Source: Clostridium niameyense (GTDB lineage: Bacteria; Bacillota; Clostridia; Clostridiales; Clostridiaceae). Taken from it: 64,000 nucleotides of DNA. The position numbers and the translations under genes are program-made. The notes below the pieces were generated by a model. It had not been told where the DNA came from and did no database searches. It worked only from the letters and a program-made list of their open reading frames with translations. The first letter of the stretch is position 1, and each line of letters starts with the position of its first letter. The DNA lies in the NCBI RefSeq assembly GCF_001243045.1, contig NZ_LN849007.1:2260989-2324988 (forward strand), in the 5' to 3' direction. Of this stretch, positions 3,692 to 61,122 are shown in pieces.

Positions 3692-3794
3692 CTCTTATCT
3701 TGCAGAATATACTGCAGGAATTGGCACCTTAGCGATAATTCACTGGTTGCCGGGTTTCATAGGGCCCTTTTCCCTCCACCTCTCTTGATAAGAG
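3692..3794 (-). promoter_or_regulatory. SAM-I (S-box) riboswitch aptamer
   Basis: On the minus strand the leader reads CTCTTATC, then AGAGGTGGAGGGA, GGGCCC, ATGAAACCCGGCAACC, GGTGCCAATTCC and finally GATAAGAG, which pairs with the first segment as P1. These are the conserved S-box landmarks in order. SAM binding should stabilise P1 and favour the terminator at 3651-3677, reducing metK expression. Confidence 0.96.
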
Positions 3795-3826
3795 TCTTTA
3801 TTAATTTAATTATGTAATATATATGA

Positions 3827-3855
3827 ATGATATCATAGTAAAATTTTTGTGTCAA
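3827..3855 (-). promoter_or_regulatory. Promoter of metK
   Basis: Minus-strand TTGACA (3855-3850), a 17-bp spacer and TATCAT (3832-3827), about 25 bp before the riboswitch P1. This is a near-consensus sigma-A promoter. Confidence 0.85.
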
Positions 3856-3896
3856 CAATTTTTACATTAGTTTATATTTTAATAAATTATAAACAT

Positions 3897-3927
3897 AAAA
3901 GTACCTTTACTTATATAAGTAAAGGTA
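3897..3927 (-). terminator. Terminator of the tRNA operon
   Basis: TACCTTTACTT pairs perfectly with AAGTAAAGGTA (3927-3902), followed by CTTTTATGTTT, just after the last tRNA-Tyr. Confidence 0.82.
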
Positions 3928-3929
3928 TT

Positions 3930-4014
3930 TGGTGGAGGAAGACGGATTCGAACCATCGAAGCGAAACGCAACAGATTTACAGTCTGCCCCCTTTGGCCAC
4001 TCGGGAACTCCTCC
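3930..4014 (-). tRNA. tRNA-Tyr (anticodon GTA), copy 2 in transcription order
   Basis: An 85-nt class II tRNA with a long variable arm, anticodon GTA in the loop CTGTAAA, the T-loop GGTTCGAATCC and an encoded CCA. The acceptor stem has a G7-U66 wobble that is a G-C pair in the other copy. Confidence 0.97.
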
Positions 4015-4019
4015 ACATC

Positions 4020-4095
4020 TGGAGCTGGCAATAGGACTTGAACCTACAACCTGCTGATTACAAGTCAGCTGCTCTGCCAATTGAGCCATGCCAGC
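4020..4095 (-). tRNA. tRNA-Thr (anticodon TGT), copy 2
   Basis: A 76-nt tRNA with anticodon loop CTTGTAA (TGT), T-arm GGTTCAAGTCC, a 7-bp acceptor stem GCTGGCA/TGCCAGC and an encoded CCA. It is identical to the copy at 4296-4371. Confidence 0.97.
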
Positions 4096-4116
4096 ATATA
4101 TAAAATTTTAATACAA

Positions 4117-4192
4117 TGGTGGGCACAACAGGGCTCGAACCTGTGACCCCCTGCTTGTAAGGCAGATGCTCTCCCAGCTGAGCTATGCGCCC
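4117..4192 (-). tRNA. tRNA-Val (anticodon TAC)
   Basis: A 76-nt tRNA with anticodon loop CTTACAA (TAC), T-arm GGTTCGAGCCC and an encoded CCA. It sits between the two Thr-Tyr blocks. Confidence 0.97.
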
Positions 4193-4205
4193 TTAAATAA
4201 GTTAA

Positions 4206-4290
4206 TGGTGGAGGAGGACGGATTCGAACCATCGAAGCGAAACGCAACAGATTTACAGTCTGCCCCCTTTAGCCACTCGGGAACTCCTCC
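4206..4290 (-). tRNA. tRNA-Tyr (anticodon GTA), copy 1
   Basis: An 85-nt class II tRNA. It differs from the copy at 3930-4014 at two positions, one of which restores Watson-Crick pairing at the base of the acceptor stem (G7-C66). CCA is encoded. Confidence 0.97.
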
Positions 4291-4295
4291 ACATC

Positions 4296-4371
4296 TGGAG
4301 CTGGCAATAGGACTTGAACCTACAACCTGCTGATTACAAGTCAGCTGCTCTGCCAATTGAGCCATGCCAGC
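4296..4371 (-). tRNA. tRNA-Thr (anticodon TGT), copy 1
   Basis: First tRNA of the operon. It is identical in sequence to 4020-4095, with the TGT anticodon and an encoded CCA. Confidence 0.97.
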
Positions 4372-56538: not shown

Positions 56539-56713
56539 ACTCATTCCTCCATTATTAAATTAATTTATATATATTATATGTTAATTAAGTTACGTTGGTG
56601 ATAAATGGCACATTTTTCATAGTAGTTAATAATATATATTACAGTAAAGATATTTTTTAACTCTTTTTCAGTTTATTTATAATAAAATTCTTATTAATGG
56701 GGTGGTTAATAAA

Positions 56714-57832
56714 ATGAAAATTTCTATAGATGCCCGAGGAATAAACTGGTATAAGGGTACTGGCATAGGTACTTATACTGAAAATATATTAAAATATATG
56801 ATAAATAAAAATAGTAATTATTTCTTTAATATATATTGGGCTGGAGGTAACTACAATAATTTCAAAAAACATAATACAAATATATTACTTACATCTAAAA
56901 AGTATAGTAGATTTTTTGAACAATGTTATTTCCCTAATAACATAAATAAATTAAAGCCTGACATATATCATATTCCTCAAAATGGCATAGGACTATGTGA
57001 GAACATAAACTGTAAAATAGTAGTTACCATTCATGATTTGATTCCTTATATAATGCCTGAAACTGTTGGAAAAGGTTATTTGAATAAATTTTTAAGAGAA
57101 ATGCCTAAAATAATGTATCTTTCAGATAAAATTATTACTGTGTCTCAACATTCAAAAAATGATATTCTAAAATTTTTCCCTATGGATGAAAAAAAAGTTA
57201 AAGTTATTCCTTTAGCAGCTGGGAAAAAATATAAACCCTTAGAAAAAAATAAATGCTTAAATTTACTTAAACATAAATATAAAATTGACTGTCCTTTTAT
57301 ATTATATATAGGTGGTTTCAGCCCTAGAAAAAATGTAAAATCTCTTATAATATCTTTTTCTAAGATTTATAATAAGTTGCAAAATAAATATAAACTTGTG
57401 ATTATAGGTGCAAAAAAAGATGAGGGAAATAAATTATTAGAACTAACTAATAAGCTAAAGATTGCCTCTAACATAATATTTACAGACTTTGTTCCAGAAA
57501 AAGATCTTCCTATTTTTTATAATGCGTGTAGTGCTTTTGTATATCCTTCTTTATATGAGGGTTTTGGTTTACCTCCCTTAGAAGCTATGAGTTGTGGTGC
57601 CCCTGTAATAACCTCAAATACCTCCTCAATACCTGAAGTTGTTGGTAATAGTTGTATAACTATAGATCCTTTAAATACAGATGATATGATAAATTCATTA
57701 GAAAATTTGCTAAACAATGAAGCTTTACAACGTAAATTAAGTAAAAATGGCTATGAACGATCTAAACTATTTTCTTGGGAAAAAACTTCTAAATTAACTT
57801 TAGACTTATATAATGAATTATATAAAAATTAA
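56714..57832 (+). CDS. GT4 glycosyltransferase of the spore coat cluster (2)
   Basis: A 372-residue paralogue of the 52380-53468 enzyme. It shares the N-terminal DARGINWYKGTGIGTYT pattern, the mid-protein IYHIPQNGIGL and the donor motif EGFGLPPLEAMSCGAPVITSN. The ATG at 56714 is eight bases after GGGGTGG. It is divergent from CotS 3 with 175 bp between. The two enzymes may add successive sugars to one coat glycan; that is inference. Confidence 0.9.
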   Translation: MKISIDARGINWYKGTGIGTYTENILKYMINKNSNYFFNIYWAGGNYNNFKKHNTNILLTSKKYSRFFEQCYFPNNINKLKPDIYHIPQNGIGLCENINCKIVVTIHDLIPYIMPETVGKGYLNKFLREMPKIMYLSDKIITVSQHSKNDILKFFPMDEKKVKVIPLAAGKKYKPLEKNKCLNLLKHKYKIDCPFILYIGGFSPRKNVKSLIISFSKIYNKLQNKYKLVIIGAKKDEGNKLLELTNKLKIASNIIFTDFVPEKDLPIFYNACSAFVYPSLYEGFGLPPLEAMSCGAPVITSNTSSIPEVVGNSCITIDPLNTDDMINSLENLLNNEALQRKLSKNGYERSKLFSWEKTSKLTLDLYNELYKN

Positions 57833-57845
57833 TATCTTTAACTTT

Positions 57846-57887
57846 AAAAGAAAAAGAGTCAAAATTAGAAATTCTAATTTTGACTCT
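57846..57887 (-). terminator. Strong terminator shared by GT4 gene 2 and a minus-strand transcript
   Basis: A 16-bp perfect stem (AGAGTCAAAATTAGAA with its complement, 57855-57887). On the minus strand it is followed by TTTTTCTTTT, a better tract than the plus-strand side, so it mainly terminates leftward transcription. Confidence 0.85.
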
Positions 57888-57946
57888 AAAATTTTAAGTA
57901 TTATTCCAAGCTATCGCTTCTTATATTAAGCCCCCTAATATTCCCC
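57850..57946 (-). ncRNA. Candidate small RNA between the GT4 gene and the solute-binding protein gene
   Basis: About 97 nt bounded by a near-consensus promoter (57953-57981) and a 16-bp intrinsic terminator. No plausible reading frame with a ribosome binding site is present. Predicted folds by eye: an ATATTA/TAATAT stem presenting GGGGGC, a small AAGC-GATA-GCTT hairpin, then the terminator. The G-rich loop (GGGGG at about 57935-57931) and the upstream AAGGGGAA are candidate antisense seed regions. Confidence 0.55.
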
Positions 57947-57952
57947 TTCTAC

Positions 57953-57981
57953 ATTATACAATACCTTTCGTGCTTTGTAAA
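57953..57981 (-). promoter_or_regulatory. Promoter of the candidate small RNA, with overlapping cre-like box
   Basis: Minus-strand TTTACA (57981-57976), 17 bp, then TATAAT (57958-57953). The sequence TTGTAAACGTTTTATA (plus strand, about 57975-57990) overlaps the -35 and resembles the catabolite-response element consensus WTGNAANCGNWWNCAW apart from the last CA. A LacI/CcpA-type repressor there would block the promoter. Confidence 0.6.
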
Positions 57982-58003
57982 CGTTTTATAGCGCTTATTT
58001 TCA

Positions 58004-59272
58004 TCATTTTATTACATTATTTATAAATTCCTTGATATTTTGTAATTCCTTTTTTATATTCTCACTAGTATATATATTATTTTTATATTTTAATAACACT
58101 CTTTCCACCGCATTAAAATTTTCTGTATAGTTTATATTAGGAATTTGCTTTGATATACTACTAAACATCATCCAAATTCTCATATTTTCAAAATAATTAA
58201 CCTGTTTTCTAAAAACATCACATTCATAAGCTGGTATATATGATGGAAACAAACCATATTGCTTAAAACCTTCTTCTAGATTTCTTCTGCTTAAAGTTAT
58301 ATATTTAGCTAAACTTAAAGTTAAATTATCTTTATTAGTTTTAGATGACTTTATTAAAACTAAAGATGTCCCCCCTGTAGTTGCAGAATTCTTACCCCCT
58401 TGTTCAAAGGCTGGCATTTTTATTACTCCCCACTTTTTGCTACTGTTAGGATATTTATTTATTAAGTAATGGGCAAATTCACAATTACTTGGAATTGTGG
58501 CTATATTTTCATTATTGATAACATTTCTATAATCACCTTTATTATTAATAACAATATTAAAATTTCTTATAGACTTTAAAAGATTAATAGCTTTGTTTGA
58601 ATCTTCTTTATCTATAGTAACGTCATTGTCATAATTAAAATAATATGTCCCTAATTGATTTAATAATATCTTTAACATACTATTATCATCTAGATTAAAA
58701 GATATCATCTTTACGTTACTGTTACTTTTTTTATCCATCATCTTTCCAACTTCTATAAAATCATTCCAGGTTTTTATAGATTCTGGATCAATATTATATT
58801 TGTTGAATATATCTTTTCTATAATAAAGGGCTACAGGTTCTACATCATAAGGTATAGCTATATAATTTTCATTTATCTTTATTATATTTTTTTTATAGTG
58901 TATAAAATCTTTTATATAAGGTTTAATTTCACTATTTAAATTTAATATATCTTTATAGTACTTAGAAGCAAATTCGCTTAAATCACTATCTTTTAAACAT
59001 ATTATATTAGGATATTCTTTTTCATTATTACTTTTACCGAAATTATTTAATATATCTTCATAACTTTTTTTATAAAATTTCACTTCTACATTAGGATATC
59101 TTTTATTAAAATCTTTTACCGCAATATCCATAGATTGATTATATTTGGGTTCGCCCCATATAACTAATCTAGATTTAATGTAATTTTTTCTATTTGATCC
59201 TTTTTTACAAGCTATAAATACTATAGGTATAATTAAAATACAAATTATTAAAAGAATATTTCTCTTTTTCAT
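58004..59272 (-). CDS. Extracellular solute-binding lipoprotein (sugar ABC type), orphan
   Basis: A 422-residue type 1 solute-binding protein. The signal peptide ends at a lipobox with C22 (VFIAC), and the mature part starts SRLVIWGEPKYN, with the family segments IPYDVEPVALYYRKDIF and TTGGTSLVLIKSS. Such proteins deliver sugars or oligosaccharides to ABC permeases. No permease or ATPase gene is adjacent, so it must use a transporter encoded elsewhere or serve as a sensor. AGGAGG precedes the ATG. Confidence 0.85.
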   Translation of the reverse strand: MKKRNILLIICILIIPIVFIACKKGSNRKNYIKSRLVIWGEPKYNQSMDIAVKDFNKRYPNVEVKFYKKSYEDILNNFGKSNNEKEYPNIICLKDSDLSEFASKYYKDILNLNSEIKPYIKDFIHYKKNIIKINENYIAIPYDVEPVALYYRKDIFNKYNIDPESIKTWNDFIEVGKMMDKKSNSNVKMISFNLDDNSMLKILLNQLGTYYFNYDNDVTIDKEDSNKAINLLKSIRNFNIVINNKGDYRNVINNENIATIPSNCEFAHYLINKYPNSSKKWGVIKMPAFEQGGKNSATTGGTSLVLIKSSKTNKDNLTLSLAKYITLSRRNLEEGFKQYGLFPSYIPAYECDVFRKQVNYFENMRIWMMFSSISKQIPNINYTENFNAVERVLLKYKNNIYTSENIKKELQNIKEFINNVIK

Positions 59273-60817: not shown

Positions 60818-60845
60818 ATTATATTCCTAAGTGACCAAATGTCAA
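60818..60845 (-). promoter_or_regulatory. Promoter of the radical SAM gene
   Basis: Minus-strand TTGACA (60845-60840), 16 bp, then TATAAT (60823-60818), giving a leader of about 50 nt. Confidence 0.78.
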
Positions 60846-61122
60846 TATATTCATATAATCATTTACAAAGTATTAATAAAATGTTATATATTAACATTAT
60901 TCCCAATACCCTATTAAATATATATATTTAATTAAAAAAATATTATGATAATTTTTATATACTTATAAGGTATATATTACGCCATATACCCTTATAATTG
61001 TAAATAAAAAAGTACTATACATTAAAATAACTAAATATAATTAATAAAATATTTATTATTAATCATATGAGATAATTAACACATAGTACTCTTATTAAAA
61101 ACATTTTATTAAATTGTTTATA
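60846..61122. other. AT-rich intergenic region downstream of larB
   Basis: No gene is seen. It holds two inverted repeats readable as terminators of the lar operon. On the minus strand AGTACTATGTGTTAA...TTAATGTATAGTACT (61090-61011, long loop) is followed by T6. A second hairpin, ATAAGGGTATAT...ATATATACCTTAT, lies at 60997-60963. Confidence 0.55.

Follow-up and report, generated by a model that had tools for sequence, protein, structure and literature searches.

A candidate member of a conserved clostridial sRNA family at a lipoprotein/glycosyltransferase junction of Clostridium niameyense

The DNA analysed (hereafter the window) is a 64 kb stretch of Clostridium niameyense (contig NZ_LN849007.1, assembly GCF_001243045.1), and the unit described here lies on its minus strand, between the stop codons of a solute-binding lipoprotein gene and a convergent glycosyltransferase gene (Table 1). 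We found no permease among the nine neighbouring proteins scanned around the lipoprotein gene, which a first-pass annotation of the sequence had called an orphan. That word is misleading, since the gene, even without a nearby permease, is part of a conserved cluster. A block of larC, larE, larB, a radical SAM gene and the lipoprotein gene faces the glycosyltransferase and CotS-like genes, and this arrangement recurs, whole or in part, in many of 59 loci; larC, larE, larB and CotS-like are what we take these genes to be, partly from Pfam matches.

The lipoprotein is fast-evolving (22-33% identity), and as an anchor for the locus search in genome contigs it gave no match. Anchoring on the radical SAM neighbour yielded 28 loci, the best of them matching at 77%. 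Hence, no close relative was found. A plasmid search gave no match, and matches to three phage records, covering pieces of 21-26 nt (E 0.4), were taken as chance. Elsewhere in the window, the stretch 3692-4371 holds a SAM riboswitch (3692-3794, minus strand) and five clustered tRNA genes in the order Tyr-Thr-Val-Tyr-Thr, a cluster that may have arisen by partial duplication. A perfect TTGACA-16-TATAAT was seen at 60818-60845 (minus strand), ahead of the radical SAM gene, with a cre-like palindrome carrying two mismatches just upstream of it (60854-60867); matches of this kind are no commoner in the window than expected by chance.

Table 1. Features of the unit and its flanking genes (window coordinates)
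Feature	Position	Strand	Remarks
Solute-binding lipoprotein gene (SBP_bac_8/SBP_bac_1)	58004..59272	-	ends upstream of the sRNA promoter
Gap from lipoprotein stop to convergent glycosyltransferase stop			171 nt; sRNA unit inside, minus strand
Operator-like AAAACGTTTACA	57976..57987	-	candidate site; overlaps the -35 box
-35 box TTTACA	57976..57981	-	motif scan
-10 box TATAAT	57953..57958	-	motif scan
Candidate sRNA	57846..57946	-	~97-101 nt; start near 57946 judged from the -10 box
First G box GGGG	57943..57946	-	
Predicted hairpin	57923..57941	-	second G box GGGGG (57931-57935) at the loop
Small predicted hairpin AAGC-GAUA-GCUU	57908..57919	-	
Intrinsic terminator	57855..57887	-	15-bp stem, 3-nt loop, T-rich tract 57854-57845
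Convergent glycosyltransferase gene (Glycos_transf_1)	56702..57832	+	other side of the sRNA

The promoter matches 11 of 12 consensus letters over its two boxes with a spacer of 17 nt, and this minus-strand TTTACA-17-TATAAT is present where the first-pass annotation had read it (57981-57976 and 57958-57953). The terminator stem begins 65 nt from TATAAT and is followed directly by the T-rich tract TTTTTCTTTT; stem and T-rich tail are thus as described earlier, except that the stem has 15 pairs and not 16. As had also been claimed, no reading frame lies between promoter and terminator: no ORF of at least eight codons was found in the window transcript. The RNA has a fold z of -3.7, and in the predicted structure one hairpin has its loop formed by GGG from the GGGGGC run. 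The hairpin at 57908..57919 may be what is left of the terminator loop seen in the relatives.

We compared these elements with chance expectation within the window. Between 55 and 61 kb, 46 promoter-like matches were observed against 47.9 expected from shuffles, and 4 terminator-like matches against 1.1; over the whole window, the cre consensus with at most two mismatches was matched 39 times against 49.2 expected, while exact AAAACGTTTACA was found once. With the window sequence as the only evidence, neither the promoter nor the cre-like match therefore exceeds chance level, and the terminator and the fold stand out moderately. Hence, the 'LacI/CcpA palindrome' of the first-pass annotation carries no weight from the window by itself, because its matches (39) do not exceed the 49.2 expected. 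Judged from sequence comparison, it is through conservation in relatives that the unit goes beyond chance.

We found the unit at the same lipoprotein/convergent glycosyltransferase junction in 25 other clostridial genomes, so that 26 distinct members, the window included, were collected. Its parts come in the order AAACGTTTAC, 17-nt spacer, TATAAT, GGG box, TTAATC, second GGG box, T run (in the relatives) and hairpin. The ten letters AAACGTTTAC are identical in 26/26 members, with conservation fading to A-richness further upstream; the spacer is 17 nt in all 26, the search having allowed 16-18, and TATAAT is likewise universal, being fixed by the pattern used for collecting. Hence, the invariance of CGTTTAC and TATAAT is partly built in, because the collecting pattern AACGTTTAC fixed both. 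GGG is kept at box 1 in 26/26 members and at box 2 in 25/26, the boxes standing 11-16 nt apart, start to start. TTAATC occurs in 23/26 and is absent from the window and from two loci, L044 and L050.

We also compared 32 distinct junctions (window included) that were reached by gene order and not by the promoter pattern. CGTTTAC with a spaced TATAAT was present in 15 of them, and in 15/20 of those longer than 100 nt. The unit is missing from the other 17, among which 12 span just 3-76 nt and 5 exceed that length. The pattern AACGTTTACN{17,19}TATAATN{5,35}TAGGG matched in 23/340 genomes against 1/340 for the backward control, and 22 of the 23 matches lie at the lipoprotein/glycosyltransferase junction; the remaining one (L092, genome G127) is away from it and was dropped. 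A promoter-free search with the core 18-mer TTAATCATAGGGAWTTTT matched in 13/225 genomes (control 2/225), in all 13 where a member was already known. Most genomes with the lipoprotein are without the unit: among 147 relatives of one genome, 56 have a lipoprotein match and 11 of these carry it. Each carrier examined has the unit at one place. The carriers include C. tyrobutyricum ATCC 25755 (L013), C. carboxidivorans P7 (L008) and C. drakei (L007), none of them known as a pathogen.

Three junctions have features of their own. Those of L044 (2791-3004) and L050 (2841-3054) hold enlarged versions with a larger 3' domain (by eye), and the extra 5' stretch before their G boxes could pair, as ATAGC..GCTAT in one and GTAGC..GCTAC in the other. 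The junction of L086 (~1640-1819) is about 180 nt longer than those of the closely similar L083 and L084; the extra sequence, which looks unrelated and resembles an insertion, separates the sRNA terminator from the stop of the glycosyltransferase gene.

The terminator stem was assessed in alignment A3, which has 23 rows; alignments A2 and A3 deliberately exclude the window, and also L044 and L050 for their extra domains. We found 95.1% of stem cells paired in A3 and compensatory double changes at 14/17 stem pairs. None of 500 shuffled alignments reached the A3 stem on any of five measures, relatedness lying outside this shuffle control, and structures with slid partners brought pairing down to 40-61%. 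The mean fold z over the 26 members is -4.8, with L044 at +0.2 (L044 and L050 were cut short for the member fold and ORF scans). ORFs of at least eight codons occur in 3/26 transcripts (L041, L044 and L047), at different places. Conservation is strongest in the promoter and the 5' core, and less so in the sequence of the terminator. The comparison of related genomes finds promoter, G boxes and terminator hairpin kept at one locus, and the unit has what identifies an independent bacterial sRNA gene: its own conserved promoter and an intrinsic terminator, with no conserved ORF. We hold with high confidence that it is an independent sRNA gene, in line with the small RNA unit read by the first-pass annotation, and that its family is conserved in clostridia.

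The window copy was recovered by a covariance model (R1) built from 12 relatives with the window excluded. Its best match in the 64 kb is 57989-57907 on the minus strand (30.7 bits, E 0.0068; next match E 0.9); judging from the alignment, the promoter contributes most of this score. The window has the promoter, the operator-like site, both G boxes and the position in common with the family; it is without TTAATC and its terminator differs from the family's. Hence, the window copy is a divergent one. With strict filters R1 matched in 10/147 genomes and did not detect the enlarged versions in G032 and G066. A weak R1 match in G074 (L069, E 0.0058) was dropped: it has no CGTTTAC promoter, and neither a lipoprotein nor a glycosyltransferase gene lies beside it.

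A quickly built tree of the glycosyltransferase, with 42 rows that include 25 carriers (L050, with an ORF below 330 aa, was left out), placed 22 carriers in one starred clade without any non-carrier. The branch of the window is long and marked unsure, and the group that it falls in has weak support (82) and consists otherwise of rows without the unit. L044 and L091 also carry the unit and lie outside the main clade, and 4 state changes are needed. Our own reading is that the unit is ancestral with several losses; the tree itself cannot separate gain from loss.

The site over the -35 box was compared with the cre consensus for CcpA of B. subtilis, TGWAANCGNTNWCA, as quoted in PMC5263246. The reverse strand of the clostridial promoter reads TGTAAACGTTT, with AGTAAACGTTT in two members. 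Against the consensus, 11-13 of 14 letters agree and the far end is not kept: the 26 members have 1-3 mismatches and never meet it in full. The GTAAACGTTT half-site, which is the likeness to the cre and cre_var sites of CcpA, reads TGTAAACG on the reverse strand in 24/26 members and AGTAAACG in 2, and is the one half-site kept; the half-site away from the -35 box is not conserved. The cre_var layout, with TGTAAA within about 40 nt upstream of TTTACA, was found in only 1/26 members.

The operator-promoter pattern AAACGTTTACAN{16,18}TATAAT matched in 14/147 genomes, 10 of them at the clostridial sRNA, against 5/147 for the control; in 4 of the 14 genomes (G018, G020, G027 and G120) it occurs elsewhere. 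Of the LacI/CcpA palindrome reported over the -35 box, then, a conserved site stands (26/26), whereas the full consensus is never met and the match within the window is at chance level. The site is probably a LacI-family operator, as a candidate named from sequence conservation, and CcpA is our best guess among the LacI-family regulators, a choice that we favour by a little.

Taken as a whole, the explanation that we favour on balance is a stand-alone conserved sRNA under LacI-family/CcpA control that acts by pairing of its G boxes. The repressor, a LacI-family protein and most likely CcpA (with HPr-Ser-P as its co-factor), would bind AAACGTTTACA over the -35 box and keep the gene off under a preferred sugar. 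When the repressor leaves, the sRNA would be made, and its G boxes would pair with C-rich stretches in mRNAs or in C-rich small RNAs, the latter being titrated.

Several other readings of the locus were weighed. It could be mainly 3' UTR, with a bidirectional terminator that serves both convergent genes and an incidental promoter; the unit does sit between convergent genes, no terminator-like site was found between the lipoprotein gene and the sRNA promoter, and the relatives' hairpin could stop both genes because A and T tracts flank it (by eye). Conservation that peaks in the promoter and 5' core and not in the terminator sequence argues against this reading, as do the 12 of 17 unit-less junctions that measure only 3-76 nt, and we consider it very unlikely. 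A short peptide gene is more improbable still: the transcript is short and AGGGG/AGGGA could resemble ribosome-binding sites, but ORFs of at least eight codons appear in just three members, each at a different place, and the window has none. A decoy RNA that titrates CsrA through GGA motifs, the type known as CsrB/RsmZ, would fit the AGGGA at box 2 in most members, the GGA in many terminator loops (both by eye) and the presence of CsrA in 23/23 carrier genomes searched, of 25 known. However, CsrA is also present in 27/30 genomes with a lipoprotein match and no RNA at the junction (these 30 have no RNA match, apart from one elsewhere in G018 and in G027), GGA, at 19/26 for box 1 and 23/26 for box 2 (by eye), is less conserved than GGG at both boxes, and the second box of the window is without GGA; titration of CsrA is therefore unlikely in our judgement. 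Since GGG is kept better than GGA, we lean to pairing with C-rich RNA over CsrA binding, and action by base pairing through the G boxes is, by a narrow judgement, probable.

Known G-rich RNAs bear on what such pairing might do. RosA (S345) of Bacillus subtilis is a stand-alone sRNA of about 229 nt with three G-rich regions, its transcription being repressed by CcpA, which has a site at -1 to +12 (PMC8216469), and RsaI (RsaOG) of Staphylococcus is a CcpA-regulated stand-alone sRNA with two G-rich regions (PMC8216469), which pair with UCCCC motifs of RsaE (PMC9217828), and with a C-rich region for mRNAs (PMC8216469). In RosA too, the G-rich regions are described as pairing with other RNAs (PMC8216469). 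The clostridial RNA resembles RosA in layout, being stand-alone and G-rich, with two G boxes and a cre-like promoter element; it differs in its length of about 97 nt, its two boxes and the site over the -35 box. Like RsaI, it is stand-alone and has two G-rich regions (25/26 members have GGG in each box), whereas no C-rich region was seen in it by eye. A strict sponge of the RosA/RsaI kind, which would neutralise one or more C-rich small RNAs and so link catabolite repression to their targets, draws on this same combination of two G boxes, an operator-like site over the promoter and a stand-alone gene. Yet the partner family RoxS/RsaE was over the cut-off in 0/25 carrier genomes (weak in 6/25, with E up to 1 and a best E of 0.0019), and no other C-rich partner was identified. 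Hence, the clostridial RNA is at most an analogue of RosA and RsaI, a strict sponge of their kind is doubtful, and titration of another sRNA in general is rather unlikely, if slightly less so.

Under the preferred reading, G-box pairing by a catabolite-controlled sRNA, mRNAs are among the possible partners, and the first-pass annotation had suggested the adjacent sugar-binding gene or coat-cluster mRNAs. This suggestion found no support: across 10 loci, the sRNA was predicted to pair with the start regions of adjacent genes and coat-cluster genes no better than shuffled versions of it did (60 shuffles each; mean z -0.7 to +0.5 for genes present in at least 7 loci). The exact antisense of the core, CCCTATGATTAA, matched in 14/16 carrier genomes; outside the sRNA loci it occurred at 6 places in the 16 genomes, none of them recurrent. 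Four of these lie inside ORFs (L100, L106, L111 and L115) and one outside the listed ORFs (L113). The match at L096:1501 is part of a hairpin that has a T run and immediately precedes an apparent tRNA synthetase gene; this is probably a coincidence.

We found no Rfam family at the gathering score at the junction in the window or in 6 family loci, and the three sub-threshold matches belong to unrelated families. Among the literature matches listed, none describes the clostridial junction RNA. A survey of small RNAs in the genus Clostridium reportedly appeared in 2011, and to our knowledge the sRNAs of solvent- and acid-forming clostridia have been little studied. We take the unit as a new sRNA family, and it is possible that the locus has been predicted by computer before.

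The covariance model of the clostridial sRNA family would be usable for annotation. Tentatively, and as a conjecture that we rate as rather improbable in its full form, clostridia may have evolved a counterpart of RosA/RsaI independently. It would be a G-box RNA of old origin, present in single copy and under catabolite repression beside the spore-coat glycosylation cluster; it would capture C-rich RNAs and would have been lost in several lineages, with the window copy a highly diverged survivor. A single-copy family at a fixed place, whose core is conserved and whose promoter element can be tested, offers a handle on the question whether catabolite repression works through RNA in clostridia, as is described for RosA and RsaI (PMC8216469).
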